Origin: Pelagibacteraceae bacterium AG-404-N13
Lineage (GTDB): Bacteria > Pseudomonadota > Alphaproteobacteria > Pelagibacterales > Pelagibacteraceae
DNA length: 52,917 bases
NCBI GenBank assembly: GCA_003216255.1
Contig: QCJD01000010.1
Span: 1-52,917 of the forward strand
Direction: 5' to 3'
Shown here: in pieces, positions 13,037-51,021 of the stretch
Numbering within the stretch: the first letter of the stretch is position 1
How the letters are laid out: each line of letters opens with the position of its first letter
Translations under genes and position numbers: made by a program
Notes under the pieces: model-generated
What the model saw: only the letters and a program-made list of their open reading frames with translations
The model's database searches: none
Told to the model about the DNA's origin: nothing

Positions 13037-13063
13037 GATTTTAATATATAATTCATATTAATT

Positions 13064-14248: not shown

Positions 14249-14258
14249 ATATAAATTA

Positions 14259-15182: not shown

Positions 15183-15187
15183 TTACC

Positions 15188-20655: not shown

Positions 20656-22878
20656 TTAATTTATTAAGGGTTTGCCAGTAGCAAGAGTATGTTTAATTCT
20701 CTCTTGCGTTTTTTGTGTTTCTATTAATTTCATAAAAGCATTTAATTCTAACTTAAATAAATCATCTTCTGTCAAAGTTTTGTCTAAAGTTGTATCACCA
20801 CCACTTAATACATATGCTAGCTCTTTACCAACTTCCATTCCATGGTCAAGGATAACTTTGTCATTATACAGTTTTTCTAATAGACTAATCATTTTTTCCC
20901 TAACAATTTTTCCAGATAGATTAAAAGTACATTCTTCTGATGGAGAAAAATTTTTATTACTTGAAAGTATTTCCTTTGAAACTGAAAATAAACTATTTCT
21001 ACTCATTATTTTTTTATCTTCTGGTTTTAAATATTTTAAAGGCTCTGCTTCTATTGGAGAGGTTGCTGTTTTAGCGTAACCAATAATATCAAATACTTTT
21101 AATGAAGCAAAATCTGGATCTTTTTTTGCTTCTTCAGACTGAGACCATCTCCACAACATTTCTTTGCATCCTCCACCGGCAGGAATTAATCCGACTATAG
21201 TTTCAACAAGTCCAACAACAATATTTGTATGAGATGCAACAAAATTACTTTGAACTAAAACTTCAAATCCTCCTCCCAAAGTTAAACCTGAAGGAGCTGA
21301 GACCACTGGATATTTAGAGTATTTTAAATGTTTACAAGTATCTTGAAAATATTTTACAAATTTTTCAATTGATTTAAAGTCTCCTTTGTCTGCAAAATTC
21401 ATTGTATAAGATAAATTTACACCTGCAGAAAATTGCATACTTTCATTAATAATTATTAAAGGTTTGTCTGTTGCATTTTTCAAACTGTCCATGGAATCGT
21501 AATCCAAAGCGTTTGCCTTAGTTGTAAATTCAACAATATTAAAATCATTAAACCTGTATATTTCAGCTGAATTATTTTTATCTAATTTAATTGCTTTAGG
21601 TTTTATTTTTCCTAAGGTCTCCATTTCTGTATACTTCTGTCTTTCTCCATAAAAATTTTCATCTTTATTTTTGGATAAATTTTCTAAGAAGTTATTATTT
21701 TTGAAATTATCAATTCTCTCAAAGAAAGATTTAACTCCAATTTCTTTTAACATTTCAAATGGACCTTTGGACCAATTAAAACCTAGTCTCATTGCTTCAT
21801 CAATATCATTAAATTTATCTGTAATTCCTGGAACTAAGGAAGAAGCATATTTAATAATTTTTGAGATAACGCTCCAAGCATATTCTCCATATTTATCTTT
21901 TCTGTTTATTAACTTATTAATATCTATTCTTTCAATTCCTAAATTAATTTTTTGAGAAGTTGAATATTCTCCAGTTTCTAAATTGATGGCTTCTAAAATT
22001 TTTTTATTTTCTACTTTGTTCATTCTGTAGAAACCACCCTTCCCTTTACGACCTGTATATCCAGTTTCTATAAGTTTTTTTACTAATGGTATTTCTTTAG
22101 CAACTATTTGAAATTCATCATTTTCAGGAAGTTCTTTTATAAAACTTTTCAAAACATCAGCCATTAAATCTATTCCTATTAAATCATATAACCCAAAAAC
22201 TCCTGTCTTAGGTATTCCCATAGGCCTTCCAAATACCGCATCTGCTTCTTCGATAGAAAGTTTCATTTTAAATGCTTCAGTCATTGCAACTTGCATTGCA
22301 TAAACACCAATTCTATTTCCTAAAAAGCCAGGTGTATCGTTACAAATAATTGTTCCTTTTCCTAGATCTTCTTCACAAAATTTTTTTAAATCATTTATTT
22401 TTTCAATATTATTATTGGGGCTTTTAACTATTTCTAATAAATCCATGTATCTTACTGGATTAAAAAAATGTGTTATACAAAAATCCTTCTTTTCGTCTTC
22501 TGATAATTTTTCTGACAGTACTTTAATTGGAATAGAAGAAGTATTTGATGATACAATAGATCCAGGTTTTCTCTCTTTGAATATTTTCTCATAAATATTA
22601 TGTTTTATGTCAATTCTTTCAACAACAGCTTCCACTATCCAATCAGCTTGGCTAACGACATTAAAGTCGTCGTTAATATTACCGACACTAATATTATTTA
22701 CTTTTGATTTGTCTATTAACAAAGGTGGTCTAGATTTATAAATACGTTCTCTAGCTTTTTCACTTATTTCTGTTGTTAAATCCAATAATGTTACTGGTAT
22801 TTTCGCATTGCACAACTGCGCAGCAATTCCACAACCCATTGTACCAGAACCTATTATTACAACTCTTTTAATTTCCAT
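20656..22878 (-). CDS. 3-hydroxyacyl-CoA dehydrogenase / enoyl-CoA hydratase fusion (FadN-like order)
   Basis: A 740-residue bifunctional beta-oxidation enzyme with the dehydrogenase first. The NAD-binding motif VVIIGSGTMGCGIAA opens the protein, SSNTSSIPI and ITHFFNPVRYMDLLEIV mark the catalytic region, and NDTPGFLGNRIG begins the helical domain. The crotonase part lies at about 440-640 (SAPSGLTLGGGFEVLVQSN, LVETIVGLIPAGGGCKEML). Domain order is that of FadN-type proteins, the reverse of FadB/FadJ. No thiolase is adjacent, but one lies at 34776. It overlaps the ABC ATPase gene by 11 bases, so it belongs to that operon; why a peptide transporter should be linked to acyl-CoA oxidation is unclear. 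Confidence 0.92.
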   Translation of the reverse strand: MEIKRVVIIGSGTMGCGIAAQLCNAKIPVTLLDLTTEISEKARERIYKSRPPLLIDKSKVNNISVGNINDDFNVVSQADWIVEAVVERIDIKHNIYEKIFKERKPGSIVSSNTSSIPIKVLSEKLSEDEKKDFCITHFFNPVRYMDLLEIVKSPNNNIEKINDLKKFCEEDLGKGTIICNDTPGFLGNRIGVYAMQVAMTEAFKMKLSIEEADAVFGRPMGIPKTGVFGLYDLIGIDLMADVLKSFIKELPENDEFQIVAKEIPLVKKLIETGYTGRKGKGGFYRMNKVENKKILEAINLETGEYSTSQKINLGIERIDINKLINRKDKYGEYAWSVISKIIKYASSLVPGITDKFNDIDEAMRLGFNWSKGPFEMLKEIGVKSFFERIDNFKNNNFLENLSKNKDENFYGERQKYTEMETLGKIKPKAIKLDKNNSAEIYRFNDFNIVEFTTKANALDYDSMDSLKNATDKPLIIINESMQFSAGVNLSYTMNFADKGDFKSIEKFVKYFQDTCKHLKYSKYPVVSAPSGLTLGGGFEVLVQSNFVASHTNIVVGLVETIVGLIPAGGGCKEMLWRWSQSEEAKKDPDFASLKVFDIIGYAKTATSPIEAEPLKYLKPEDKKIMSRNSLFSVSKEILSSNKNFSPSEECTFNLSGKIVREKMISLLEKLYNDKVILDHGMEVGKELAYVLSGGDTTLDKTLTEDDLFKLELNAFMKLIETQKTQERIKHTLATGKPLIN

Positions 22879-24901
22879 TTTGTATGTTTTCTAATTCCTT
22901 AATGTTTATATGGCATCTTATTGCATTTCCATTATCGCCAATTTGCCACGGTGGAGTTTCATTTTTACATTTATCACCTAAAATTCGTGGACAACGGCCC
23001 TGGAAACAGCATCCTTTTTCAGGAGGTTTATCTTCAACGATATCTTCAGCAACAAGTTTTGGTTTTATATCGGGATCAGGTTCCAAAACTGCTCCCAGTA
23101 ATACTTCTGTATAAGGGTGCGAAGGAAATTTATAAACATTTTTAGATGGTCCAATTTCACATAATCGACCTTGATATAAAACTGCAACTCTATCGCTTAT
23201 AGCTCTTACAACTGCTAGATCGTGAGAAACAAATATATAAGTAGTACCAAAATCTTCTTTCAACTTTTGAAGTAAGTTAAGTACAGCTGCCTGTACAGAA
23301 ACATCTAGAGCTGAAGTAACTTCATCACAAAGAATTATATCTGGTTTTGCTGCAAAAGCTCTTGCAACAGCAACTCTTTGTTTTTCACCTCCTGACAATT
23401 GTCTAGGGTATCTAGTCATGTAAAATTTACCTAGTCTTACTTTTTCTAAAAGGTCAATTATATTATTTTTTAATTTCTCTCCAGATAAACCAAAATATAA
23501 TTTTAAGGGCTGGGCGAGAATTTCTTCAACAGTATGATTTGGATTCAAAGATTCATCTGGATTTTGAAAAATTAATTGAATAGCTCTAAGATCGCTAGAA
23601 TTTCTTTTTTTTAAATCGTTAGATAAAATTCTATCTTGATTAAATTTTATATTTCCTTCTTTAGTTCTAAGTAAACCTGCTATTGATTTTAAAATAGTTG
23701 ATTTACCGCTACCTGACTCTCCAACAAGAGCAATAGTTTCTCCTTTATTAATATCAATATTAATATCTTTTACTGTAGGATTTGTATCTGTAATTTTATT
23801 TAAAATTTGATCTAATAATTTTTGTTTTGCATAGCTTATTGAAACATCAGTTAAATTTAATATTTCATTTATTTTGATATTTTTTTCATTTCTAGATGTG
23901 CTTAATTGCTTTTTACTTTTATCTTTTAATAATTTCTTATAATTAAAACATCTTACACTTGTTTTTAATTCATTAATGTATTCAAGATCAGGTGAATTTT
24001 TTTTACACTTTTCTTCTGCCAAATTACATCTGTCATAAAAACTACATCCTTCTTTTTTTGTTCCAGGTTGGGGTTGACTTCCAGGCATTGAGCCAGGTAA
24101 TCCAGCCAAAGATAATTTAGGTATAGAATTTAAAAGTCCATAAGTATACGGATGAATTGGTCTTTTTAGAATATCTCTTGCTGGTCCTTCTAAAACAATT
24201 TCTCCAGAATACATAACAATAATTCTGTCACTTACCTGTGCTATAGCTCCTAGGTCATGACTAACATAAACCATTGAAGTGCCAGTATCTTTTGCAATAA
24301 AATTTAAAAGCTCCAGAACATGTGCCTGAGTTGTTACATCTAAACCTGTTGTTGGCTCATCTAACAATAGAAGATCTGGATTACCTGCTAATGCCATACC
24401 AACAGCTACTCTTTGTTGTTGACCACCTGAAAGTTCATGGGGATATCTAAGTGCTATAGTTTCTGGCGAAGGAAGCCTTACTTTATTTAACAATTCTGAA
24501 ATCTTTTTTTCCCTTTCATTTTTATTAAAATTTGTATGTAATTTTAATGCTTCATCAATTTGATAACCTATTTTTAAATTTGGTGTTAAAGCTTGACCGG
24601 CATTTTGAGGTATCATAGCTATTTTTCTACCTCGAATTTTTTCTAATTCTCTATTGTTCATATTAAGAAGATTAAATGAATTGAATATGCATTCCCCTCC
24701 CATTTTAAATAATCCTTGTTTAACGTAACCCATCATCGCTAAAGCTAAAGTACTTTTTCCAGAACCAGACTCTCCTACTATGCCGACAGTTTCTCCTTTT
24801 TTTATGTTGGTAGTAATGTTTTTTAGTATTGAAATCTCATGACCCTTTTGACTTTTAAAACCAACAGATAAATTTTTAACTTTTTGAATTATTTCACTCA
24901 T
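22868..24901 (-). CDS. Fused double ATPase of a peptide/nickel-type ABC transporter (DppD-DppF-like)
   Basis: 677 residues carrying two complete ABC modules. Module 1: GESGSGKSTLALAM, signature LSGGQQQRVAVG, Walker B LLLLDEPTTGLDV. Module 2: GESGSGKSTILKSI, LSGGEKQRVAVA, IILCDEVTSALDV. Each ends with the oligopeptide-family Cys motif (GCSFYDRCNLAEEKC; GCCFQGRCPRILGDKC). GsiA-like fusions of this kind energise di/oligopeptide or glutathione-type importers. It is the fourth gene after the binding protein and two permeases, with three bases to the permease gene. Confidence 0.95.
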   Translation of the reverse strand: MSEIIQKVKNLSVGFKSQKGHEISILKNITTNIKKGETVGIVGESGSGKSTLALAMMGYVKQGLFKMGGECIFNSFNLLNMNNRELEKIRGRKIAMIPQNAGQALTPNLKIGYQIDEALKLHTNFNKNEREKKISELLNKVRLPSPETIALRYPHELSGGQQQRVAVGMALAGNPDLLLLDEPTTGLDVTTQAHVLELLNFIAKDTGTSMVYVSHDLGAIAQVSDRIIVMYSGEIVLEGPARDILKRPIHPYTYGLLNSIPKLSLAGLPGSMPGSQPQPGTKKEGCSFYDRCNLAEEKCKKNSPDLEYINELKTSVRCFNYKKLLKDKSKKQLSTSRNEKNIKINEILNLTDVSISYAKQKLLDQILNKITDTNPTVKDINIDINKGETIALVGESGSGKSTILKSIAGLLRTKEGNIKFNQDRILSNDLKKRNSSDLRAIQLIFQNPDESLNPNHTVEEILAQPLKLYFGLSGEKLKNNIIDLLEKVRLGKFYMTRYPRQLSGGEKQRVAVARAFAAKPDIILCDEVTSALDVSVQAAVLNLLQKLKEDFGTTYIFVSHDLAVVRAISDRVAVLYQGRLCEIGPSKNVYKFPSHPYTEVLLGAVLEPDPDIKPKLVAEDIVEDKPPEKGCCFQGRCPRILGDKCKNETPPWQIGDNGNAIRCHINIKELENIQNGN

Positions 24902-24904
24902 AAT

Positions 24905-25798
24905 TTATACTGGAGCTTTTGTTGATCTATCAATTCCTAATGCTTTAGCAAAAGCATCTGCGGTTAAATTGATTCCAATTATTAAGCTACTTAATCCAAC
25001 AATAGGAGCTATCACTGCCCAATAAGCAAATGACATAAGTCCTCTGGCATTTGAGATCATCAATCCCCAATCTGGAGTTGGTGGACTTACTCCAAATCCT
25101 AAAAATGACAGAGAGCTAAATCCTAATAACATCCAAGACCATCTCATTGCTCCTTCAACTAATATTGCATCTCTTACGTTAGGTATTATTTCGTTCCAAA
25201 TAATAGATAAGTTACTGTGTCCTCTAGCTCGTGCTGAAACGATAAAATCTTTTGCGATTACATCATGAGTTGCTGCTCTTGCAACTCTAACAATTCCTTT
25301 TCCATAAAAGAAACCTAGCGCTGGTATAAGAACTTGAGTTGATGTACCTAGTAGAGAAACTATTAACAGCATAGCTAATATCCATGGGATTGATAAAAAA
25401 GCATCTACGACTCTCATAACAACGTCATCTATTTTTCCTCCAACCAATCCACAAAAAATTCCCAATAAACCTCCCCAAAGTAATGCTATCAAAGATCCAA
25501 AGAAAGTTATTGTAAGAGCAGTTCGTCCTCCCATAATTGTTCTTGTAAATACATCTCTTCCCAAACTATCAGTTCCAAACCAATATTCTGAGGATGGTGC
25601 TTGAAGCATCAGAGAAGGATCAATTGCTTTAAAATCGTATGGTGCCAAGAAAGGGCTTAGAAAAGCTAACAATATATGAAATACTAAAATACTTAAACCT
25701 ATAAAGCCAGAAGGTTTTGAGGCCATAGTCAATAGCACCTCGGAAATTTTTTTGAAAATGCTTTTTTTTTTATTTACTTTTGCTTTATTTATTTCCAT
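24905..25798 (-). CDS. Peptide-type ABC transporter permease (DppC-like)
   Basis: A 297-residue inner-membrane permease with the N-terminal family segment FLAPYDFKAIDPSLMLQAPS and SLGRDVFTRTIMGGRTAL. The EAA loop is in SARARGHSNLSIIWNEIIPNV. About six membrane segments follow. It forms the heterodimeric channel with the DppB-like gene one base upstream. The substrate may be peptides or another solute handled by the SBP_bac_5 class. Confidence 0.95.
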   Translation of the reverse strand: MEINKAKVNKKKSIFKKISEVLLTMASKPSGFIGLSILVFHILLAFLSPFLAPYDFKAIDPSLMLQAPSSEYWFGTDSLGRDVFTRTIMGGRTALTITFFGSLIALLWGGLLGIFCGLVGGKIDDVVMRVVDAFLSIPWILAMLLIVSLLGTSTQVLIPALGFFYGKGIVRVARAATHDVIAKDFIVSARARGHSNLSIIWNEIIPNVRDAILVEGAMRWSWMLLGFSSLSFLGFGVSPPTPDWGLMISNARGLMSFAYWAVIAPIVGLSSLIIGINLTADAFAKALGIDRSTKAPV

Positions 25799-25799
25799 T

Positions 25800-26756: not shown

Positions 26757-26808
26757 AATTAAGATTATTTTTCTTAATTTTAAAAATAAATATTAAAAAT
26801 GAAACAAA

Positions 26809-26839
26809 TTTTACAGGCCTTAAAATAAGGCCTGTAAAA
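26809..26839 (-). terminator. Hairpin behind the dppA-like gene (partial terminator or mRNA 3' stabiliser)
   Basis: Perfect 14-bp arms TTTTACAGGCCTTA / TAAGGCCTGTAAAA with a 3-base loop, starting 11 bases after the binding-protein stop codon. On the minus strand it is followed by a weak T-rich stretch (AAAATTTGTTTC). Such elements between binding-protein and permease genes lower downstream expression and protect the upstream mRNA (established for other ABC operons). The downstream genes have no obvious promoter, so readthrough is likely. Confidence 0.8.
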
Positions 26840-26850
26840 AATAATTTGTA

Positions 26851-28338
26851 TTAATCTACTTTTACTTTATGCCATCTAACTGAAAAAACCTCAACTTCAT
26901 CAAGGTTTTTTACTCTAGAAGAAGTGACAACCAACTTAGATACATGGTAAGGAATCATAGTCCCAGCTTCTTCCCATAAAGTTTTTTGTGCATTTTGATA
27001 AGCTTTTTTTCTTTTATCAAAATCAAGCTCTCCTCTAGCATCTGCTAAATTTTTATCAAACGATGCGCTTTTGTAAAAAGACTCATTCCATTTTGCTCCA
27101 CTATGATAAGCTTCATGCAAAATACTATCAGCTGGTCTTTCATTCCAACGTGTCATAGCTACAGCTTTTTTCATCCAAGTCTCTTTCCAATAACTCTTTG
27201 AAGGAGTCATTTGGATATCAGCTTTGATACCTGCTTTAGCTAATTGTTGCTGCATTACTTCAGCAATTGTTGGCCATGTTGGCTCTTTTGTAGAAACATG
27301 TATTGTCATCTCAATTCCATTTGGATAGCCAGCTTCAGCTAAAAGCTTTTTAGCTCCATTAATGTCTTGATCGCAATTCATATTAAGACGATATTGATCA
27401 GATGGTGAAACTGGTGTATCACAAGATACTGTAGCCGCTCCTCCCATAACTAAATCAACAAGTTCTTGTCTATCAACAGCCATTCGTACAGCTTTTCTTA
27501 CTTTTGGATTATCAAAAGGAGCTGTATCTGTTCTCATCACCATACCTCTCCAGTTACCTGTTGGTACTACAGTAGTATTAAATTTAGAATTTCCATCAAA
27601 TATTTTTTTTTGAGCAAATGGCACGTATCTATTCATATCAATTTGACCAGTAAGAAGAGCTTGTACTCTAGCTTCTCCATCTGGTATTGCGATTACATGA
27701 ACTTCTGCAAGTCCAGGTGCACCTTCCCAATAGTCAGGATTTGCTTTTAAAATTGTTGTTCCTTCTGCATCAAATTTATCCACTATAAATGGACCAGTTC
27801 CAATTCCAGTTTGTCCAATAGTATCTCCTGATCCTGACGGTATCATTCTTAATCTATAATCCGTTAATAATAATGGAAAATCTGCAAATGAAGTATTTAA
27901 TTTCATTTTAACTGTATGAGAATCTACTACTTCAATATCTGTTACCGAGCTCATACTTTTTTTTGCCGGCGATCCAATATCTGGATCCTTAACTCTCATT
28001 AAAGAATATTTTACATCTTCTGCGTCAAAGTCAGATCCATCATGAAATTTAACTCCTTTTCGAAGATTAAAAGTCCATTCTGTTGCATCAGAATTTCCAG
28101 ACCAATCAGTAGCAAGTTCTGGTGATGTTACTCCATCAAGATTTTTTCTTACCAATCTGTTTTGAGTCATAATTACTACTTGGAACAATCGTCCTTTTGT
28201 AATTGCATCTAAATTAGTATCTTTTCCAAAACCAAGATCATGTGATAATTTAAAAACTCCACTTGATGCGTTGGCTGGTGAAAATGCTACTAATAGGGAT
28301 ATCAAAGAAACTGATATCATTTTTATAATGTTTTTCAT
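26851..28338 (-). CDS. Periplasmic peptide-type solute-binding protein (DppA-like, SBP_bac_5)
   Basis: 495 residues from the ATG at 28338. This start is chosen because GAGGG lies about seven bases upstream and it gives a clean signal peptide (MKNIIKMISVSLISLLVAFS, ANA cleavage). An upstream in-frame ATG at 28392 would spoil the signal. Family 5 binding-protein blocks: SPELATDWSGNSDATEWTFN, RKGVKFHDGSDFDAEDVKYS, GIGTGPFIVDKF and NPDYWEGAPGLAEVHV. It captures di/oligopeptides or other solutes in the periplasm for the DppBC-like channel. First gene of a six-gene operon. Confidence 0.95.
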   Translation of the reverse strand: MKNIIKMISVSLISLLVAFSPANASSGVFKLSHDLGFGKDTNLDAITKGRLFQVVIMTQNRLVRKNLDGVTSPELATDWSGNSDATEWTFNLRKGVKFHDGSDFDAEDVKYSLMRVKDPDIGSPAKKSMSSVTDIEVVDSHTVKMKLNTSFADFPLLLTDYRLRMIPSGSGDTIGQTGIGTGPFIVDKFDAEGTTILKANPDYWEGAPGLAEVHVIAIPDGEARVQALLTGQIDMNRYVPFAQKKIFDGNSKFNTTVVPTGNWRGMVMRTDTAPFDNPKVRKAVRMAVDRQELVDLVMGGAATVSCDTPVSPSDQYRLNMNCDQDINGAKKLLAEAGYPNGIEMTIHVSTKEPTWPTIAEVMQQQLAKAGIKADIQMTPSKSYWKETWMKKAVAMTRWNERPADSILHEAYHSGAKWNESFYKSASFDKNLADARGELDFDKRKKAYQNAQKTLWEEAGTMIPYHVSKLVVTSSRVKNLDEVEVFSVRWHKVKVD

Positions 28339-28461
28339 ATTTTCCCTCTCTTTAAAAAAGCGGAAGTTAACAAGTTGAGTGATGGTTAGCAACAGGCAAA
28401 ATTGTTACGTTTTTATTGATTGTATTTGATAATAAACTAATTTGCTGAAATAAATTAACAA

Positions 28462-29685
28462 ATGAATAAAACCTTAAACAATTTAAGATTCACAGTTAAA
28501 CCATCAATCTCAGAAGGCGAAAGAGCTTTGGAGTTAGCCAGAACTATAGGCGTACATCCTTTAACTTATCAAGAATTACCTTTTGATCCAGAATACTCTA
28601 TATACGCAGGTCGATTAACTCCAGAAAAACTTTCAAATGCAACTGCAGAAGAAATGTATTGGAAAGTAAGGAGAGAATTAATTTTTCGTCATACCGGTGA
28701 ACATCCATATGAAATATCTGGACCTGATGCACTTAAACTACTTCAAAAAATTTTTCCTAGAGATATTTCAAAAGTAAAAAAAGGAAGATGTTCATATCAA
28801 TTTGCCTGCTACCATGATGGCGGCATGATCACTGATGGCATTTTGTTAAGAATTAATGATAATACATATTGGTTTGCTCAAGCTGATGGTGATATGTTTT
28901 CGTGGTACAAAGCTCAAGCAGAAGGTTTAAATGTAAAAATTGTAGATCCGAATGTTTGGGTTAGTCAAATACAAGGTCCAAGATCAATGGAACTTTTAGA
29001 TATTTTAACTAAAACAAATATTTCATCGAATTGGAAATATTTTGATTGTAAAGAAGTAAATATTTCAGGAGAAAAAATTATTATTAGTCGTTCAGGTTTT
29101 AGTAATGAATTAGGTTGGGAAATATATTTTCGTCAAGAAAATGATATTGAAAAATTAGGAGACCTAATACTTAAGGAAGGCTCAAAAATGGGAATGATCA
29201 TAACAGCTACTCCAGTTTTTCGATGTAGAAGGATTGAAGCAGGTCTTCTTTCTGCAGGACAAGATTTTACTAATAAAACCGATCCATTTTCTGTAGGACT
29301 TGGAAAATTTGTTGATTTAGAAAAAGATAATTTCATTGGCAAAGAAGCTCTTAAAAATTCAAATAAAAAATGTCGAACTTGGGGCTTACGTGTTGAAAAA
29401 GGAACAGCAATGAAGGGTAAAAATTTAAAAATAAATGGAAAAATTGTTGGAGAAATTACCTCAAGTACTTGGTCTCCATATCAAGTATGTGGTGTTGGAA
29501 TTGTTCGTATGCAAAACAACAACATGGGACCTGGAACAGTTGTAGATGTTAATTGTACAAATGGAAAAATTCAAAAGGGAGAATTGTGTGAACTTCCAAT
29601 GTACGATCCAAATGGAGATATAGTTAGAGGAAAAAATAAAGAAATTCCAAATAAACCAAATCCATGGTCAGGAATAAAAAAATAA
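28462..29685 (+). CDS. GcvT/DmdA-fold aminomethyltransferase-like C1 enzyme
   Basis: 407 residues of the GcvT fold: EISGPDALKLLQKIFPRDIS, CYHDGGMITDGILLRI, VSQIQGPRSMELLDI, SRSGFSNELGWEIYF, RRIEAGLLSAGQDFT, and a C-terminal barrel (GEITSSTWSPYQVCGVGIVR). Family members move a methyl or methylene group from an amine, sulfonium or ether to tetrahydrofolate. It is not close enough by eye to GcvT proper or DmdA to name the substrate. It starts the seven-gene operon and overlaps the peptidase-E-like gene by 22 bases. No gcvH or gcvP is near, which argues against the glycine cleavage system. Confidence 0.85.
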   Translation: MNKTLNNLRFTVKPSISEGERALELARTIGVHPLTYQELPFDPEYSIYAGRLTPEKLSNATAEEMYWKVRRELIFRHTGEHPYEISGPDALKLLQKIFPRDISKVKKGRCSYQFACYHDGGMITDGILLRINDNTYWFAQADGDMFSWYKAQAEGLNVKIVDPNVWVSQIQGPRSMELLDILTKTNISSNWKYFDCKEVNISGEKIIISRSGFSNELGWEIYFRQENDIEKLGDLILKEGSKMGMIITATPVFRCRRIEAGLLSAGQDFTNKTDPFSVGLGKFVDLEKDNFIGKEALKNSNKKCRTWGLRVEKGTAMKGKNLKINGKIVGEITSSTWSPYQVCGVGIVRMQNNNMGPGTVVDVNCTNGKIQKGELCELPMYDPNGDIVRGKNKEIPNKPNPWSGIKK

Positions 29686-30350
29686 TTTCTATTGGTGGAG
29701 GAGGATTTACTCACAATACAGACAAAAGTCTGGATCAATTTGTTTTAAACCAAGTAAATTTAAAAAAATTTAAAATTGGTTTCTTACCAACAGCAAGTAA
29801 AGATAATAAAGAAAAAACTGATTTATTTTATAAAAGATTTAAAAATAATTTTACAGTGTTATCACACTTTAATCTTTGTTCTAAAATAGATGGATTTAAA
29901 GAGTGGTTTTTAAATAATGATTTAATTTATGTTGGTGGAGGAAATACTTTCTATATGCTTGAATTATGGAAAAAAAATAATCTTATAAAAATCTTTGAAG
30001 AAGGTTATGACAAAGGAATAATTTTATCAGGGGTAAGTGCGGGTGCTATCTGTTGGTTTGATTGGATGTTATCGGACTCAAAAGGTTTGGGGTTTAAACC
30101 CTTAAGAGGTTTAAATTTAATTTCTGGCAGCTGCACACCTCATTCATCTGATGACGGTAGGATTAATCAGTTCCAAAAAGACATTAAAAATAGTAAATTG
30201 CCTGAAGGAATAGCTATCGACGATGGTGTAGCAGTACTTTTTATTGACGGAAAACCATCAGAAGTTTATTCATCAAGAAAAAATCATGATGCTTATTATA
30301 TAGATAAAAATAAAAAAATTAGTCTAAAAGATCATATTAAAAATTTATGA
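29664..30350 (+). CDS. Peptidase E (S51)-like protein
   Basis: 228 residues of the class I glutamine-amidotransferase-like S51 family: IISIGGGGF at the start, LIYVGGGNTFYMLELW, and the nucleophile elbow GVSAGAICWFDW with the catalytic Ser. S51 members cleave Asp-X dipeptides (PepE) or beta-aspartyl-arginine (cyanophycinase). A late Asp/Glu-rich segment (GIAIDDGVAVLFIDGKPSEV) is typical. Its start lies inside the preceding GcvT-like gene and its stop overlaps the next start (ATGA), so it is embedded in the operon. Confidence 0.85.
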   Translation: MVRNKKIISIGGGGFTHNTDKSLDQFVLNQVNLKKFKIGFLPTASKDNKEKTDLFYKRFKNNFTVLSHFNLCSKIDGFKEWFLNNDLIYVGGGNTFYMLELWKKNNLIKIFEEGYDKGIILSGVSAGAICWFDWMLSDSKGLGFKPLRGLNLISGSCTPHSSDDGRINQFQKDIKNSKLPEGIAIDDGVAVLFIDGKPSEVYSSRKNHDAYYIDKNKKISLKDHIKNL

Positions 30351-31507
30351 GTAAAAAAATTCAACCAAGTAAAAAAATTCATAGTCTTGAGGATGCTCGA
30401 AAGTTAGCAAAAAAAAGGCTTCCAAAAATGTTTTTTGATTTTGTAGATGGTGCAGCTGGGGATGAAAAACTCTGTGAATTAAACAGTACAGCTTTAGATC
30501 AAATAAGACTTGAGCCAAAAGTTTTAAGAAATGTTGAAAAAAGAAGTTTAAGTAAAAAATTTTTTGGTATTAACTATAATCTTCCATTTGGATTTGCTCC
30601 AATGGGTATGTGTGATTTGACCTGGCCTGGAGCAGATAAAATGTTAGCAAATGAAAGTTTGATTAATAATATTCCAGCTTGTGTGTCTATGGCTTCAACT
30701 ACCTCATTAGAAAAAATGTATGAATTGACTGAAGGAAGGTCTTGGCTTCAATTATATATATTTCAAGATGAAAAGTTCGTAATGGAGCTAATAGATAGAG
30801 CAAAGAAAACTGGTTACAAAACATTAGTACTAACAGTAGATGTTCCAATTCAATTTAGAAGAGCAAAAGATGATAAAAATGGATTTACAGTTCCATTTAA
30901 AATTGGACCTAAGCAGTTTTTTGATTTTGCTACTCACCCTAACTGGTCAATTTCAACTTTGTTCAATGGTATTCCAAAACCAATGAACTATGAAACTTCA
31001 AAAAATGGAAACAAATTCGTAAGAAGTGAAAGTCGTGGTTCAACTGACTGGGAAACTTTAAAGCGTATAAGAAATGCCTGGGATGGAAAATTAGTCGTTA
31101 AAGGTGTTATGTCTCAACAAGACGCATTAAAAATAAAAGATGAAGGAGCAGACGCTATTCAAGTTTCTAACCATGGAGGTAGGCAACTGGAAAGTGCAAC
31201 GTCAGCAATTAATGCATTACCATTAATCAGAGAAACTTTAGGTAAAGAATTTCCTTTGATTTTCGATAGCGGAGTAAGAAGTGGTGGAGATATAGTTAGG
31301 GCTCTTGCTTTCGGTGCAGATTATGTCATGATTGGAAGACCATTAATGTATGCTATTGGAGCAGATGGAGCCCGAGGATTAAGAAAAATTATAGAAATAA
31401 TTATAGGAGAATTGAGCACAACACTTGGTTTAGTTGGATTAACTGATATTAATGAAATTACTTCTGACATTGTTGCTCAGAAATATTTTAAAGATATGAA
31501 ATATTAA
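30347..31507 (+). CDS. FMN-dependent 2-hydroxyacid oxidase/dehydrogenase (LldD family)
   Basis: 386 residues with the family pattern: LPKMFFDFVDGAAGDE, FAPMGMCDLTWPGADKMLA, TSLEKMYELTEGRSWLQLYI, LVLTVDVPIQFRRAKD. The catalytic His is in SNHGGRQLESA and FMN phosphate binding in FDSGVRSGGDIVRA and GADYVMIGRPLMYA. It oxidises a 2-hydroxyacid (lactate, glycolate, mandelate-like) to the 2-oxoacid. Substrate specificity cannot be assigned by eye. It is followed after four bases by a TPP enzyme that could act on a 2-oxoacid or a 2-hydroxyacyl-CoA. Confidence 0.93.
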   Translation: MSKKIQPSKKIHSLEDARKLAKKRLPKMFFDFVDGAAGDEKLCELNSTALDQIRLEPKVLRNVEKRSLSKKFFGINYNLPFGFAPMGMCDLTWPGADKMLANESLINNIPACVSMASTTSLEKMYELTEGRSWLQLYIFQDEKFVMELIDRAKKTGYKTLVLTVDVPIQFRRAKDDKNGFTVPFKIGPKQFFDFATHPNWSISTLFNGIPKPMNYETSKNGNKFVRSESRGSTDWETLKRIRNAWDGKLVVKGVMSQQDALKIKDEGADAIQVSNHGGRQLESATSAINALPLIRETLGKEFPLIFDSGVRSGGDIVRALAFGADYVMIGRPLMYAIGADGARGLRKIIEIIIGELSTTLGLVGLTDINEITSDIVAQKYFKDMKY

Positions 31508-31511
31508 AGAT

Positions 31512-33251
31512 ATGGAAAAAAAAATTAGAGGCGGTGCTTTAATAGCAAGGGCATTAAAAGAAAAAGGTATTGATAAAGTTTTTACATTATCTGGAGGTTT
31601 TTGTAATCCTGCAATAGAAGGATTTATGGAATGCCAAATTGAGGTTGCTAATTGTCCCCATGAACAAATTGCAGGACATATGGCTGATGGATATACTAGA
31701 ATTACAAGGAAGCCTTCTGTTTGTTTGGTAGGACCTGAAGGTTTCGCAAATGCTGTACCTTCTATGATGGAGGCTTGGGGAGAAAGAACTCCCATAATTT
31801 ATATTACTGGATCCAGCAGTCTAAAAAGACAAGGCTCAGGAGGATTTAAAGAAATAGACGATGTTTCAATTGCTGCTCCTTTAACTAAATATAGCGCAAG
31901 TATTACTGATGGAAATAGAATTAGAGAGTTTGTTGATAAGGCTTATAGAATTGCAACAAATGGGTATCCTGGTGCAGTTCATTTAAGTTTGCCTGTTGAT
32001 TTAATGTTCTCATCTTTTTCAGAAGACGCAGGTCTCGAGGAAAGACCTTTTTCACATAAAGCAAAACCTGTTGCAAAAGCTTGGCCAGATCCAAATTCAA
32101 TGTCAGAAATTTTAGAAATAGCTATTAATTCAAAAAAACCAATTTTGATAGGTGGACACGGAGTATGGTGGTCCCACTCAGAAAAAAAATTAGAAAATGC
32201 TGGGAACAATTTGAGTATTCCAATATTCAATATACCTTATCATCAAAAATTATTAGGAGAAGAGTCAAGCTCATACATGGGTTTAGCTGATATTCATCAA
32301 TACCCACCATCTGAATTTGCATTAAATAATACAGATTTAATATTAATGGTAGGAGCAAGACTAGATAATCAAATGAACTTTGGAAATCCTCCTTTTATTC
32401 CAAAAAATACTAAACTAGTTTGCATAAATGGTTCTCATGAGGAAATAGAATTTAATAGAGCAGCTGATATTAATCTTTTATGTGATCCTGGGGTATTCTT
32501 AGACACTTTAAGCAATTTAAAAAAAAATAAAAAATGGATTTTAGATAGAAATTGGTTTGATGAAAATAAGAATAAAAAAAAAGAATGGGTTGATAAATCT
32601 TTAAATGATTTAGAAATTGAAGCTAAAGAAACAAAAAAAAATGGGGGTAAAATACATCCATTACAATTATCCCTAGACGTTCAAGACGTAATGAATGAAA
32701 ATGATTGGTTAGTGATTGATGGAGGAAACACGCACTTCTGGTCAGAAATTGCTATTAACATTGCAGGCGCTAAAGGGAAAAAACTTGGGGGAATTTTGCA
32801 CCCAGGTACATTTAGTATGCTTGGTGTAGGAGTTTCTTTTGCTTTATCAGCTAAAAATAATAATCCTAATTCTAATGTAATTCTTATTAGCGGAGATGGT
32901 GCTTTTTTATCTGGAGGAATGTCAATTGAATCTGCTTTTTTTGAAAACAAACCTATTATTGTTGTTATTGACAATAATGGAGGGTTAGCTTCAATTGGTC
33001 AACAGCAGGAACGTTTATTTGAGAGTGGAAAAAGAGTTGCTACAGATTTCAGAGATATACCGTTTCATAAAATTTTTGAAGGTTTTGGAGGGTATGGAGA
33101 GCTTGTAACAAAGAGAGAAGAGCTTGGACCAGCTTTAAAAAGAGCTATTGCAAGTGGAAAAACAGCATGTGTAAATGTAAAAGCAAAACCAGTATTAAGT
33201 CCTATTGTTGCAGCAGTTGCTTCTAAAAGAGAGAAATCATCAATAGAATAA
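31512..33251 (+). CDS. Thiamine-diphosphate-dependent enzyme (acetolactate-synthase / 2-hydroxyacyl-CoA-lyase-like)
   Basis: 579 residues in three domains. The N-terminal Pyr domain has the activating Glu in CPHEQIAGHMADGYTR; the middle domain starts at about 190; the PP domain holds the Mg/TPP motif SGDGAFLSGGMSIESAFFEN ending in IDNNGG. SSLKRQGSGGFKEIDDVSIA resembles oxalyl-CoA decarboxylase / HACL proteins. No small regulatory subunit is adjacent, so biosynthetic acetolactate synthase is less likely. Glyoxylate carboligase is unlikely because it lacks this Glu. Position behind a 2-hydroxyacid oxidase suggests carbon-carbon cleavage in the same pathway. Confidence 0.9.
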   Translation: MEKKIRGGALIARALKEKGIDKVFTLSGGFCNPAIEGFMECQIEVANCPHEQIAGHMADGYTRITRKPSVCLVGPEGFANAVPSMMEAWGERTPIIYITGSSSLKRQGSGGFKEIDDVSIAAPLTKYSASITDGNRIREFVDKAYRIATNGYPGAVHLSLPVDLMFSSFSEDAGLEERPFSHKAKPVAKAWPDPNSMSEILEIAINSKKPILIGGHGVWWSHSEKKLENAGNNLSIPIFNIPYHQKLLGEESSSYMGLADIHQYPPSEFALNNTDLILMVGARLDNQMNFGNPPFIPKNTKLVCINGSHEEIEFNRAADINLLCDPGVFLDTLSNLKKNKKWILDRNWFDENKNKKKEWVDKSLNDLEIEAKETKKNGGKIHPLQLSLDVQDVMNENDWLVIDGGNTHFWSEIAINIAGAKGKKLGGILHPGTFSMLGVGVSFALSAKNNNPNSNVILISGDGAFLSGGMSIESAFFENKPIIVVIDNNGGLASIGQQQERLFESGKRVATDFRDIPFHKIFEGFGGYGELVTKREELGPALKRAIASGKTACVNVKAKPVLSPIVAAVASKREKSSIE

Positions 33252-33253
33252 TT

Positions 33254-33589
33254 ATGGCAACTCTATCTTCACATTTATTAAATTCTATAAATGGCACACA
33301 TGCAAGTAATGTAGAAATAATTATTTATCAAACAAAACCAAATGGAGAAAAAAAAGTATTCTGTGAAACAAAAACTGATAGTGGTGGCAGACTTTTAAAA
33401 GAATTCACACTTAATGATGAAGATTGTAAATCTGAATATGAAATGATTTGCAAAACTGGAAATTATTTTTCAGAAAAAAAAATAGTCTCAGAAATTACTG
33501 TTAAATTTAAAATGCCAGACCCAAATAAAAAATATCATATTCCAATAATAATATCGCCAAATGGTTATTCAATTTGGTGGTCTGACTAA
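33254..33589 (+). CDS. Transthyretin / 5-hydroxyisourate-hydrolase-like protein lacking the YRGS tail
   Basis: 111 residues, the usual size for this fold. The N-terminal His region (SSHLLNSINGTHASNVEI), the Arg in DSGGRLLKEF and the His in KYHIPIIISPNGYS match the three catalytic positions of HIU hydrolases. True enzymes end in a Tyr-Arg-Gly-Ser tetrapeptide; here the tail is GYSIWWSD. It may be a hydrolase of altered specificity or a binding protein. It sits two bases after the TPP enzyme and 22 bases before the DmdA-like gene, away from the allantoin operon at 13-16.7 kb. Confidence 0.78.
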   Translation: MATLSSHLLNSINGTHASNVEIIIYQTKPNGEKKVFCETKTDSGGRLLKEFTLNDEDCKSEYEMICKTGNYFSEKKIVSEITVKFKMPDPNKKYHIPIIISPNGYSIWWSD

Positions 33590-33611
33590 AATTAATTTAC
33601 AACAATTAAAT

Positions 33612-34757
33612 ATGCAAAAGAATATCAAATTAAATATGTCTAGACGGATTAGAAGAACACCTTTTACAAATAAAGTTGAGGAATGTGGAGTATCAGATTT
33701 TACTGTTGTAAATCATATGCTTTTACCAAAAGGATTTAATAATACTATTGAGGAAGATTATTGGCATTTAAGCAAACATGTACAAATTTGGGATGTTTCT
33801 TGTCAAAGACAAGTACAAATTACTGGTCCTGATGCTCAAAAACTTGTTCAACTAATGACACCAAGATCTTTAAAAAATATGTCAACAGGTAAATGTTTTT
33901 ATATTCCCATAATTGATGAAAATGCAGGAATGATAAACGATCCAGTGTTGTTAAAACTTGATGATGATATGTTTTGGATATCAATAGCGGACTCTGATAT
34001 TTTGTTATGGGCAAAAGGTTTAGCGCTAGGATCTAATTTAGATGTAAAAATAATTGAGCCTGATGTTTATCCATTAGCGGTGCAAGGACCTAAATCAGAA
34101 GCATTAATGTCAGAAATTTTTGGTGAAGATATTAAAAAAATTAAATTTTTTAATTTTAAAATTTTTGATTTTGAAGGAACAAAACAAATAATTGCTAGAT
34201 CTGGTTACAGCAAAGAAGATGGTTTTGAAATTTATTTCAAAGCTCATGAAGATTTTTTTGATAGTGTTCGATTAGGTGAGCAGCTTTGGGATACTATTTT
34301 TAAAGCTGGAAAAAATTATAATATATTACCAGGTTGTCCTAACTTAATTGATAGAATTGAAGCAGGTTTAATGTCTTATGGTAATGACTTTACAAAAGAA
34401 AATAATCCTTTGGAATGCAATTTAGAAAAATATTGTGACCCTAAAGAAACTCATGAATTTATAGGTAAAGATGCATTAAGAAAGATTCAGTCAGATGGAA
34501 TAAAACAAAAAATGAGAGGAATTATTTTTGATGGCAAACCTTGTACGCCAACGGGAAAACCTCTTCCAATATATTCAAAAAGTAATAAAAAAATAGGTCA
34601 AATAGCATCTGGTATTTACTCACCCAGAATTAAAAAAAATGTTGGGCTATCCATGATATTAAAAAATCATTGGGAAATTGGTCAAAACGTTATTGTTAAA
34701 ACACTTGATGGATCCAAACATGAAGGGATTATAACTACTTTACCATTTCCAAAATAA
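33612..34757 (+). CDS. dmdA: DmdA-like demethylase (dimethylsulfoniopropionate demethylase family, GcvT fold)
   Basis: The N-terminal half carries the blocks I recognise from DmdA: SRRIRRTPFTNKVEECGVSD, VVNHMLLPKGF, HVQIWDVSCQRQVQITGPDA, DENAGMINDPVLLKL, EPDVYPLAVQGPKSEALM, ARSGYSKEDGFEIYF, GCPNLIDRIEAGLMSYGND. DmdA moves a methyl from DMSP to tetrahydrofolate, giving methylmercaptopropionate. I start at 33612 (381 residues; eight residues before SRRIRR, as in known DmdA); 33636 is also possible, and the ATG at 33561 lies inside the previous gene. No dmdB/C/D is adjacent, and paralogues with other substrates exist, so DMSP is likely but not proven. Confidence 0.8.
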   Translation: MQKNIKLNMSRRIRRTPFTNKVEECGVSDFTVVNHMLLPKGFNNTIEEDYWHLSKHVQIWDVSCQRQVQITGPDAQKLVQLMTPRSLKNMSTGKCFYIPIIDENAGMINDPVLLKLDDDMFWISIADSDILLWAKGLALGSNLDVKIIEPDVYPLAVQGPKSEALMSEIFGEDIKKIKFFNFKIFDFEGTKQIIARSGYSKEDGFEIYFKAHEDFFDSVRLGEQLWDTIFKAGKNYNILPGCPNLIDRIEAGLMSYGNDFTKENNPLECNLEKYCDPKETHEFIGKDALRKIQSDGIKQKMRGIIFDGKPCTPTGKPLPIYSKSNKKIGQIASGIYSPRIKKNVGLSMILKNHWEIGQNVIVKTLDGSKHEGIITTLPFPK

Positions 34758-34775
34758 TCCTATATTATATTTAAA

Positions 34776-35900
34776 ATGTATAAATCTGTAATAGCTGCAT
34801 ATTCTCGATCACCATTTACGATGGCAAGAAAAGGTGCTCTTATTGATACAAAACCAGTAAATTTACTTGCAGATGTTATTAAAAATTTAGTTTCAAAATC
34901 TAATGTCAAAAAAGAAGATATAGAGGATATTGTTGTTGGTTGTGCTTTCCAAGTTGGTGAACAATGTTTTAATATTGGAAAATTAGTTACCTTCTTAACA
35001 AATATGGAAGTAAAAACATCTGGTATGACAGTCGATAGATGGTGTGGATCTTCTATGGAAGCTATACACATAGCTGCGGGTAAAATAGCAATGGGATCAG
35101 GAAAAGTTTTTATTTGTGGAGGGGTAGAAAGTATGACTAGAGTGAACACTGGATTTGATCCAATTCCATACCCTGAAAATGAAAAAGATAATCCTAACGT
35201 CTATTTTTCTATGGGCATAACTGCCGAAAATGTTGCTAAGAAATATGGTATATCAAGAAAAGAACAACAAGATTTTGCAATATCAAGTCATCAAAAAGCA
35301 CATGAAGCACAGACAAAAGGTAAATTTAAAAATGAAATTGTAAAAATTGGTAATTGTGAAAGTGATGGAAACATTCGGCCTAAAAGTAATCAGGAAACAT
35401 TAGACGGGCTAAAACTAGCTTTTGATCAAAATGGAACTGTTACAGCCGCTACCTCATCCCCTCTTACCGATGGAGCAGCAGCAACATTAATTTGTGAAGA
35501 AAATTATGCAAAAGAAAATAATTTAGAAATTTTAGGAAGAATTGTTTCTACAGCTGTTGAAGGTTGTGAGCCAAATTATATGGGTTTAGGCCCAATTGGA
35601 GCTTCAAAAAAAGCATTACAAAGAGCTGGGCTAACATCAGATAAAATTGATATTGTTGAATTAAATGAAGCATTTGCTTCTCAATCTTTAGCATGCATTA
35701 AAGATTTAAATATAAATGATAAGAAAGTAAACTTAGACGGAGGTGCATTAGCATTAGGACATCCTCTTGGAGCTACTGGAGCAAGAATAACTGGGAAAGC
35801 TGCAGATTTGTTGAAAAGAGAAAATAAAAAATATGCCTTAGCTACACAATGTATAGGTCTAGGAATGGGAATTGCTACAATTATAGAGTCTATTGATTAA
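34776..35900 (+). CDS. Acetyl-CoA acyltransferase (thiolase)
   Basis: 374 residues of the thiolase fold. The nucleophilic Cys is in VDRWCGSSMEAIHIAAG, the His in GGALALGHPLGATGARI, and the second Cys in ALATQCIGLGMGIA. VELNEAFASQSLAC is conserved. It is degradative or acetoacetyl-CoA type; chain length cannot be told. Last gene of the plus-strand operon, 18 bases after the dmdA-like stop. It could supply the thiolytic step for the FadN-like fusion at 20.7 kb. It ends one base before the stop of the convergent potC. Confidence 0.94.
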   Translation: MYKSVIAAYSRSPFTMARKGALIDTKPVNLLADVIKNLVSKSNVKKEDIEDIVVGCAFQVGEQCFNIGKLVTFLTNMEVKTSGMTVDRWCGSSMEAIHIAAGKIAMGSGKVFICGGVESMTRVNTGFDPIPYPENEKDNPNVYFSMGITAENVAKKYGISRKEQQDFAISSHQKAHEAQTKGKFKNEIVKIGNCESDGNIRPKSNQETLDGLKLAFDQNGTVTAATSSPLTDGAAATLICEENYAKENNLEILGRIVSTAVEGCEPNYMGLGPIGASKKALQRAGLTSDKIDIVELNEAFASQSLACIKDLNINDKKVNLDGGALALGHPLGATGARITGKAADLLKRENKKYALATQCIGLGMGIATIIESID

Positions 35901-36755
35901 TTATCTGTTAATTCCTCGAAGCCTTTCAGATCTTCTTCTCAAAAGTTCAGCGGTAACAAGTATTAAAACAGATAGAATTATTAAACAAGTTGCTACTGCT
36001 AAAATTGTTGGACTTAACTGTTCTCTTAAACCTGTCCACATTTGAATTGGAATAGTTGTTGTTTCTAGGCCAGCTAAAAATAAAACGACAACAACTTCGT
36101 CAAAAGATGTAACAAACGCAAACAAACCTCCAGATATTACTCCTGGTAATATTAGAGGAAGGGTAATTTTCAAAAAAGTATTAACTGGGTTACTTCCTAG
36201 GCTTGCAGCCGCTCTTGTAACACTATGGTCAAATCCTGATAATGTAGCAGTTACTGTAATTACAACAAATGGAGTACCAAGAATAATATGTGCAATAATG
36301 ATACCTAAATGTGTAGCTGCTAAACCTACTTTTGCTATAAAAAAGAAAATAGCAACTCCAGAGATAATAAGTGGAACAATCATTGGTGAAATTAGTGTCG
36401 CCATTATCAAACCTTTGTATGGCATATGTCTACTACTTAATCCTAGTGCAGCAACTGTTCCAAGAATAATTGAACCTATTGTCGCAAATACAGCTATTAT
36501 GAAACTATTTTTTGCAGCTGCGCCCCATGGATTTTTAGTTCCATAAATCATATCTTTATACCATCTTAGAGAAAATGCATCTGGATCAAGTCTTTTCATA
36601 CCATCGGAAAAAACCAAAAACTCTTCTGCATTAAATGAAAGTGGAAATATTACAAACAGAGGAGCAATTAAAAAGAAAAATACACATCCACATATAAACA
36701 AATAAACGTAATGCCAAATTCTATAATGTGGTTCTGTATATTTTGGTAATGCCAT
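35901..36755 (-). CDS. potC: Spermidine/putrescine-type ABC transporter permease (PotC-like)
   Basis: A 284-residue BPD_transp_1 permease with six hydrophobic segments. Family blocks: IAPLFVIFPLSFNAEEFLVF, RWYKDMIYG, LSSRHMPYKGLIMATLISPM, and the EAA loop ASLGSNPVNTFLKITLPLIL. SGGLFAFVTSFDEVVVVLFL is typical of PotC. Forms the inner-membrane channel with the PotB-like protein, whose gene ends two bases upstream. Substrate may be a polyamine, but the operon context suggests other options. Confidence 0.93.
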   Translation of the reverse strand: MALPKYTEPHYRIWHYVYLFICGCVFFFLIAPLFVIFPLSFNAEEFLVFSDGMKRLDPDAFSLRWYKDMIYGTKNPWGAAAKNSFIIAVFATIGSIILGTVAALGLSSRHMPYKGLIMATLISPMIVPLIISGVAIFFFIAKVGLAATHLGIIIAHIILGTPFVVITVTATLSGFDHSVTRAAASLGSNPVNTFLKITLPLILPGVISGGLFAFVTSFDEVVVVLFLAGLETTTIPIQMWTGLREQLSPTILAVATCLIILSVLILVTAELLRRRSERLRGINR

Positions 36756-46017: not shown

Positions 46018-46124
46018 GTTATGATTATTTAATGCTAATTAATTGTCAATGCAATTTATGGTTGAAATGAATTTTTTTCTTTGCTTTAATGTAATTGTAG
46101 CTCCTGCTAAAAGCTTTTTTAAAA

Positions 46125-47150: not shown

Positions 47151-47165
47151 TTATATCCAATAATT

Positions 47166-48017: not shown

Positions 48018-48025
48018 ATTATATT

Positions 48026-49168: not shown

Positions 49169-49194
49169 TAAAAAATATATGATAGGATGTATGT

Positions 49195-50628: not shown

Positions 50629-50629
50629 G

Positions 50630-51016: not shown

Positions 51017-51021
51017 AATGT

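Follow-up and report, generated by a model that had tools for sequence, protein, structure and literature searches.

We describe a gene cassette in a 52,917-nucleotide stretch of Pelagibacteraceae bacterium AG-404-N13 (contig QCJD01000010.1), hereafter the window, which is contig C10 of a 1.17 Mb source genome (G000) that is 83% complete. In SAR11, a seven-gene operon and the adjoining divergent ATP-binding cassette (ABC) importer form one mobile cassette, cleanly inserted between the genes for a 3-hydroxyacyl-CoA dehydrogenase/crotonase fusion (HCDH) and a potC-like permease. Our preferred reading, held at slightly less than even confidence, is that the cassette is catabolic and serves a methylated onium acid, of either the quaternary ammonium or the sulfonium kind, that is not dimethylsulfoniopropionate (DMSP), probably imported in part as an amide or peptide-like conjugate. 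The genes of the cassette and its flanks are as follows.

28462..29685, + strand: GcvT-fold demethylase no. 1, presumed tetrahydrofolate (THF)-dependent; PF01571/PF08669 (GCV_T and GCV_T_C)
29664..30350, + strand: family S51 serine peptidase/amidase; PF03575 (Peptidase_S51), 112.5 bits
30347..31507, + strand: LldD-like flavin mononucleotide (FMN)-dependent 2-hydroxyacid oxidase/dehydrogenase; PF01070 (FMN_dh), 395 bits
31512..33251, + strand: thiamine pyrophosphate (TPP)-dependent decarboxylase/lyase; three TPP domains, PF02776/00205/02775
33254..33589, + strand: transthyretin-like (TTR) hydrolase, diverged from 5-hydroxyisourate hydrolase (HIUase); PF00576
33561..34757, + strand: DmdA-family demethylase of a separate clade; GCV_T and GCV_T_C, NF009133
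34776..35900, + strand: acetyl-CoA C-acyltransferase (thiolase), probably accessory; Thiolase N and C, TIGR01930
26851..28392, - strand: family 5 solute-binding protein belonging to the linked ABC importer, oriented away from the operon; PF00496, 293 bits
25800..26756, - strand: ABC importer permease 1; assigned from its position and its conservation, missing from the empty site
24905..25798, - strand: ABC importer permease 2; PF00528, place conserved, absent at the empty site
22868..24901, - strand: fused double ATPase of the ABC importer; ABC_tran and oligo_HPY stretches, two of each, place conserved
20656..22878, - strand: HCDH, resident flank; PF02737/00725/00378
35901..36755, - strand: potC-like permease, resident right flank; adjoins HCDH in cassette-less genomes

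An earlier sequence-only reading of the window had described seven tightly packed genes on the + strand. All seven open reading frames (ORFs) lie where it placed them, their families match Pfam, and the spacings, in gene order, are -22, -4, +4, +2, -29 and +18 bases. The -29 overlap between TTR and DmdA assumes the earliest possible DmdA start and may in truth be smaller, as some orthologues have a later Met. The real unit extends to the left beyond these seven genes, since the importer and the operon are present or absent together. The importer operon (22868-28392, - strand) is of the dipeptide/oligopeptide type and encodes the binding protein, two permeases and the fused double ATPase. The window contained no Rfam family at the gathering score and no tRNA, and scans for promoters and terminators gave a signal no higher than shuffled levels.

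The insertion site was sought in nine cassette-less SAR11 genomes. Seven of these were readable across it (G012, G062, G063, G066, G069, G070 and G072), whereas G071 had no aconitase match at E 1e-200 and the contig of G074 ends before the site. HCDH and potC are separated by 11-59 bp (between alignment ends) in six of the seven. Nine cassette genes were checked (GcvT no. 1 to DmdA, the binding protein and both permeases), and none was found between HCDH and potC in any of the seven genomes. This indicates that the importer and operon were gained or lost as one piece. HCDH ends the Pot operon in cassette-less genomes, and in the window it ends the importer operon (the ORFs at 22868-24901 and 20656-22878 overlap). 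The sole gene between HCDH and potC in cassette-less G070 is a thiolase. As G070 retains a thiolase next to HCDH, the thiolase may belong with HCDH, and it is probably accessory to the cassette.

To describe conservation, we used the best 80 of 535 stretches matching the TPP enzyme, all 80 of which are titled Pelagibacteraceae; judging by their names, most are single-cell genomes. Together with the window and two single-contig SAR11 genomes that bear the cassette (G067 and G068), these make up 83 SAR11 loci, which we compared with 26 loci from outside SAR11 (other Alphaproteobacteria). Counts per gene omit loci whose contig ends too early, and loci that are long enough are referred to as having room. 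The searched genes had the same order in all 80 of the named SAR11 loci, within the reach of each contig. As these loci are close relatives and not independent, the weight of the conservation rests on the non-SAR11 lineages, in which the outer surroundings of the core differ. All four core genes (LldD, TPP, TTR and DmdA) stood together in 71/71 SAR11 loci that had room on either side, and in 20/25 non-SAR11 loci. The tightest association is that of the TTR gene, found no more than 400 bp after the TPP gene in every locus with room (81/81 in SAR11 and 26/26 elsewhere, 107/107 overall). Non-SAR11 loci with room carried LldD in 20/25 cases and DmdA in 22/26. Where 7 kb upstream could be read, all 63 SAR11 loci had both the S51 gene and the ABC importer; among the other loci, each was present in 10/22. 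Gene-order conservation, which the sequence-only reading had named beforehand as a test of its proposal, therefore held in SAR11 and largely in other alphaproteobacterial families.

The TPP enzyme is the best-conserved protein of the set between families, with 60-82% identity to the window; the others are lower. Its orthologue was found in 68/397 genomes of the order of the window (33/151 near-complete ones) and in 1/13 genera. At E 1e-90 it was present in 6/386 genomes of the class (the source genome counted), in 2/398 genomes of the phylum, one of which is again the source genome, and in 5/14 genomes of the order of G766. At E 1e-120 it occurred in 11/275 genomes of one family (f23) and 20/49 of another (f104). 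Among plasmid records, the TPP enzyme had no match at E 1e-80.

The DmdA-family protein of the cassette passes the NCBI model for DMSP demethylase (NF009133) with 541.7 bits against a cut-off of 410, and the copy in G621 reaches 633.9 bits. GcvT no. 1 scores 200 of the 410 bits and is not DmdA. We created a phylogeny of 41 family members, including 10 cassette copies from five families, with 200 bootstrap trees and with the distant GcvT no. 1 excluded. The 10 cassette copies formed one clade (support 100/100, present in 100% of the 200 bootstrap trees), apart from both the clade of the solved Pelagibacter DmdA (3TFH) and a Roseobacter clade with a dmdD-linked copy. At position 32 (3TFH numbering), all 10 cassette copies have Val and all 31 other members have Tyr. 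The folate-site residues E204 and Y206 (PMC7487153; numbering mapped here) are retained in the cassette DmdA. A Trp at position 197, numbered 171 in that paper and mapped here, is reported there to be DMSP-specific, and the cassette DmdA has Tyr instead. We dropped this substitution as proof of an altered substrate, as the dmdD-linked DmdA of Phaeobacter has Tyr as well. The source genome has a second DmdA on contig C9, which passes the cut-off with 570 bits and groups with the solved Pelagibacter DmdA. In G621 (2,753,527 bp), a search at E 1e-60 returned the cassette DmdA and otherwise only two matches at 36-38% identity; this genome seems to lack a canonical DmdA, and its apparent DMSP demethylase may be the cassette copy. 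These comparisons argue for, without proving, a substrate other than DMSP. DMSP, which the sequence-only reading had listed among the compounds to try, is not supported as the substrate. A structure prediction from 12 close sequences had a pLDDT (predicted local distance difference test score) of 53.7 and was not used. The source genome also contains a third DmdA-like gene (G000:C8:29916-30992) with two in-frame stops (TAG and TAA), which is a pseudogene or an assembly error.

The cassette TTR belongs to the same fold family as the HIUase of purine catabolism and shares its His and Arg residues. His, Arg and His are the catalytic residues of HIUase, and a YRGS C-terminal motif is its hallmark. 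H7, R46 and H95 are invariant in 32/32 cassette copies, and two His and one Arg are common to the HIUase encoded on contig C5 of the source genome; H16, in a G-x-H motif, is also common to the 32 copies. Unlike HIUase, the cassette TTR falls below the curated cut-off (TIGR02962, 71.5 against 87.45 bits), has other partners, and carries W-x-S in place of YRGS in 29/29 copies that reach the end (32 compared). It also has a GTHA motif. The C5 copy (G000:C5:42174-42512) scores 126.4 bits, ends in YRGS and is the true HIUase of the genome. The cassette TTR looks like an active hydrolase with a different substrate. The C5 gene is flanked by large ORFs that could encode xanthine dehydrogenase subunits, judged by size only.

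The LldD-like protein is an FMN-dependent 2-hydroxyacid enzyme by its domain and residues. Tyr, Lys, His and Arg are the catalytic residues of such oxidases, and the Q-x-Y, KG and HGGRQL residues are invariant in 27/27 copies. Its score on the L-lactate dehydrogenase model (NF033901) is 232 bits, below the cut-off of 550, and its nearest solved relatives include (S)-mandelate dehydrogenase (6bfg, 246 bits), ranked behind two L-lactate oxidase chains of greater length. The nearest solved relatives of the TPP enzyme are oxalyl-CoA decarboxylase/2-hydroxyacyl-CoA lyase (194 bits). The named TPP enzymes considered were acetolactate synthase, oxalyl-CoA decarboxylase, 2-hydroxyacyl-CoA lyase and sulfoacetaldehyde acetyltransferase; the best NCBIfam score was 262.6 against 587 bits, and no cut-off was reached among the 25 of 51 rows listed. 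The glutamate of its PHEQ motif is invariant in 32/32 copies. Glyoxylate carboligase (Gcl) is not known to carry that glutamate, so we rejected this assignment. The adjacent genes for an FMN-dependent 2-hydroxyacid dehydrogenase and a TPP-dependent decarboxylase recall mandelate-type pathways, which use this pair, as does the solved (S)-mandelate dehydrogenase near the LldD-like protein. The cassette differs in its TPP enzyme, which is nearer to oxalyl-CoA decarboxylase/2-hydroxyacyl-CoA lyase, and in the linked demethylases, TTR and peptide-type importer. The S51 protein has invariant SAGA, PH and DDG motifs (17/17) and scores below the cut-offs of peptidase E (NF003642, 28.4 of 156 bits) and cyanophycinase (TIGR02069, 23.8 of 126.6 bits), whereas the thiolase passes TIGR01930 with 413.2 against 240.55 bits. 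Among the NCBIfam rows listed, DmdA and thiolase models were the only ones whose cut-offs were reached, and the DmdA and TTR members are diverged. The outcome that the sequence-only reading had said would count against it, with each gene explained by an unrelated known pathway, therefore did not occur.

The genes of the cassette, their conservation and linkage, the clean insertion and the diverged state of DmdA and TTR are observed; from them we infer a scheme in which every reaction, the order of steps and the substrate are conditional. The family-5 ABC importer would take up the substrate, joined by a tripartite ATP-independent periplasmic (TRAP) carrier in a small number of genomes within and outside SAR11. 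The S51 enzyme, which is related to aspartyl dipeptidases and cyanophycinases, may then cleave an amide; the linked peptide-type importer strengthens the peptide hint in the sequence-only reading, which had taken an amino-acyl or beta-aspartyl substrate from this gene. Methyl groups would be transferred to THF by GcvT-fold enzymes, namely the diverged DmdA and, in SAR11 and G573, GcvT no. 1, for which a corrinoid-type MTTB enzyme may stand in in some other genomes. The LldD-like flavoenzyme would oxidise a 2-hydroxyacid to a 2-oxoacid, which the TPP enzyme could decarboxylate or cleave. The TTR-like hydrolase would work next to the TPP enzyme and perhaps open a cyclic amide. The carbon chain would leave by beta-oxidation, in SAR11 via HCDH/crotonase and thiolase. 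Demethylation, oxidation of a 2-hydroxyacid and cleavage, as originally put forward, fit the protein families. The proposed final thiolysis is weakened by the retention of a thiolase beside HCDH in G070 and by the finding of a thiolase relative in 2/25 non-SAR11 loci, in neither case directly after DmdA (some contigs end early). Candidate substrates are a 2-hydroxyacid betaine, or 4-dimethylsulfonio-2-hydroxybutyrate (DMSHB) leading to DMSP or methionine. DmdA yields 5-methyl-THF by a redox-neutral methyl transfer (PMC5395565). This would call for an activated methyl, such as that of an onium group.

Genes that accompany the core in other lineages bear on this proposal; the counts for MTTB, LysR and TRAP include the locus from which each query came. 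An MTTB-family gene (PF06253) lies near the core in 8/26 non-SAR11 loci. Members of the MttB superfamily remove methyl groups from quaternary amines, among them betaines such as glycine betaine, carnitine, proline betaine and gamma-butyrobetaine; MtgC is described as lacking in Pelagibacteraceae (PMC12478193). This absence would suit SAR11 having a folate enzyme in place of the MTTB found in other lineages. The cassette resembles betaine demethylation by MtgB, MtcB and MtpB in those eight loci and differs in SAR11, where the folate-type GcvT enzyme is present and MTTB is found in 0/83 loci. On one strand of L234, genes for sarcosine oxidase alpha, formate-THF ligase, FolD and a short-chain dehydrogenase/reductase (SDR)-type protein stand with TPP, TTR, DmdA, BKACE and carnitine 3-dehydrogenase (647.1 against a cut-off of 592 bits). 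Directly after DmdA, BKACE and the dehydrogenase recall carnitine degradation, but this pair occurs in 1/26 non-SAR11 and 0/83 SAR11 loci. In L231, ApbA, FAA-hydrolase and Ldh_2-type genes come after MTTB. Acyl-CoA dehydrogenase genes are found in L232 and L236, and agmatinase-family genes divergent from LldD in L232 and L233. DmdA is followed by a gene for a Cys/Met-metabolism pyridoxal phosphate (PLP) enzyme in L233 and for a PhyH enzyme in L239. G573 has a homocysteine S-methyltransferase-family gene (under the named cut-offs) before GcvT, and OsmC and enoyl-CoA hydratase genes after DmdA. A LysR regulator is near the core in 13/26 non-SAR11 loci. A TRAP carrier adjoins the cassette in 4/26 non-SAR11 loci and in 2/83 SAR11 loci, where it is inside the same insertion beside the thiolase (L029:14422-17155 and L030:14393-17002, both among the named SAR11 relatives closest to the window). 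In these two, the P and M genes of the carrier are 72-77% identical to those beside the cassette in G779. In the SAR11 genome of 1,456,888 bp (L157), a branched-chain-type aminotransferase follows the thiolase (12773-13651, 463.5 against 396 bits); 2/83 SAR11 loci have such a gene. The cassette region of L157 also has an extra gene (5738-6466) that looks like a family-3 solute-binding protein, with a 53% identical gene near the L247 cassette.

Several of these observations weigh against our preferred reading of a methylated onium acid. The proposed scheme offers no satisfying reaction for TTR, even though no other gene is linked as closely to the TPP enzyme. TPP and TTR occur without adjoining LldD or DmdA in three loci of one genus (L167, L168 and L171) and in L240, and L234 lacks LldD beside TPP; L170 carries LldD and TTR. 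Outside SAR11, GcvT no. 1 precedes the core, on its strand, in only 1/22 loci with room (G573), MTTB is missing from several f104 loci (L241, L242, L244 and L247), and the MTTB of L152 scores 328.9 of 525 bits, below the cut-off for pyl-type trimethylamine-methyltransferase. As GcvT no. 1 is rare outside SAR11 and MTTB is missing from those loci, MTTB as its counterpart stays a conjecture. Other partner genes vary from lineage to lineage, and they point in two directions, as MTTB and the carnitine genes favour nitrogen and the Cys/Met enzyme favours sulfur.

If sulfur is followed, the substrate could be a sulfonium 2-hydroxyacid such as DMSHB. DmdA would demethylate it and LldD would convert it to 4-methylthio-2-oxobutyrate and so to methionine, or LldD and the TPP enzyme would begin by shortening it in the direction of DMSP. 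Algae form DMSHB on the way to DMSP, and it bears both a dimethylsulfonium and a 2-hydroxyacid group (PMC5395565); SAR11 is reported to lack MetE and MetH (PMC12478193). The Cys/Met-metabolism enzyme of L233 and the aminotransferase of the 1,456,888-bp genome would also suit this route. However, it leaves TTR, S51, MTTB and the carnitine and sarcosine genes of L234 unexplained, and the aminotransferase is in only 2/83 SAR11 loci. We consider it unlikely that the substrate is specifically of this type.

Quite unlikely, in our judgement, is an ordinary DMSP demethylation operon, in which the cassette DmdA would be a true DMSP demethylase and the other genes would handle DMSP, a precursor or methylmercaptopropionate (MMPA). 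The NF009133 scores of the window and G621 copies and the retained E204 and Y206 favour it, and the cassette resembles dmdABCD in having a GcvT-fold DmdA-family enzyme that is expected to move a methyl to THF. Against this stand the separate clade with Y32V and the second DmdA of the same genome, on C9, in the clade of the solved enzyme. In addition, the seven genes include no acyl-CoA dehydrogenase, AMP-ligase or separate crotonase (the dmdC, dmdB and dmdD types), in contrast to a Phaeobacter plasmid on which acyl-CoA dehydrogenase, dmdD, AMP-binding protein and DmdA genes stand together, and they add S51, LldD, TPP and TTR. DMSP offers no amide or 2-hydroxyacid that would require S51, LldD and TPP.

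The constant pairing of TTR with TPP (107/107 loci with room) and the two His and Arg shared with true HIUase could instead suggest degradation of a methylated cyclic ureide, either a hydantoin or a purine derivative, whose ring the TTR-like protein would open as HIUase relatives do. D-hydantoinase, M20 and agmatinase-like genes near the L233 cassette and allantoin genes in the window point the same way. Yet TTR misses the TIGR02962 cut-off and has lost YRGS, with a true HIUase elsewhere in the genome. Agmatinase-like and M20 genes occur in cassette-less SAR11 genomes too, and in 6/6 other SAR11 genomes examined the cassette has no allantoin block next to it. Neutral N-methyl amides are, by general chemistry, poor methyl donors for folate enzymes. 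We judge this explanation to be about as improbable as the DMSP operon.

It is very unlikely that TPP and TTR are the sole functional unit and that LldD, DmdA and the importer are separate-use modules co-travelling in a flexible region. The pair does stand without both LldD and DmdA in 4/26 non-SAR11 loci (L167, L168, L171 and L240), with other partners varying, but LldD and DmdA accompany it in most non-SAR11 loci with room (20/25 and 22/26) and the DmdA copies form a single clade. A guanidine or arginine pathway with the TPP enzyme as 2-ketoarginine decarboxylase and an agmatinase-like neighbour was set aside, as SAR11 genomes that lack the cassette also carry the agmatinase-like, aldehyde dehydrogenase (ALDH), M20, HCDH and Pot genes; the open-access literature gave nothing useful on it among the matches listed. 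A route from gonyol to DMSP via HCDH and thiolase was not favoured, as the thiolase is outside the core beyond SAR11.

The window contains two further blocks of interest. At 14226-16674, genes for a polysaccharide-deacetylase-fold (PuuE-like) protein, allantoicase and ureidoglycolate lyase lie between M20 and ALDH. This block has the same place in cassette-less G072 and is absent in six other SAR11 genomes, so it is a variable block of its own that serves the use of allantoin. A purine pathway resting on these genes was set aside for the same distribution, as they are absent beside the cassette in those six and present without it in G072. The other block (44890-51939) encodes a TauD/gamma-butyrobetaine hydroxylase (GBBH)-like dioxygenase, an ABC ATPase, HalD-like, CoA transferase III, ALDH and glyoxalase-fold proteins and a homocysteine S-methyltransferase family member, and is possibly another methylated-compound pathway.

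A description of the operon was not found among the matches listed in the open-access literature, which was the scope of the search, with subscription papers and preprints outside it; SAR11, dmdA and hydroxyisourate hydrolase together gave no match in the same literature. A study of one-carbon metabolism in SAR11 reported four aminomethyltransferase paralogues in HTCC1062, all also present in HTCC7211, and the portion of its text available to us does not mention the cassette operon (PMC3160333).

The cassette occurs in 68/397 genomes of the order and in other alphaproteobacterial families. This points to a compound common enough for genomes of only 1.1-1.5 Mb to spend about 13 kb on it. Few marine cells are as numerous as SAR11. 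As the cassette DmdA passes the standard DMSP-demethylase model, surveys of dmdA may count the cassette as DMSP demethylation. It is possible, although we put it forward only tentatively, that the cassette encodes a pathway not yet described, acting on a methylated 2-hydroxyacid that is abundant in the sea or on its amide conjugate, in which the DmdA clade would represent a new demethylase specificity and TTR a new hydrolase working with the TPP enzyme.

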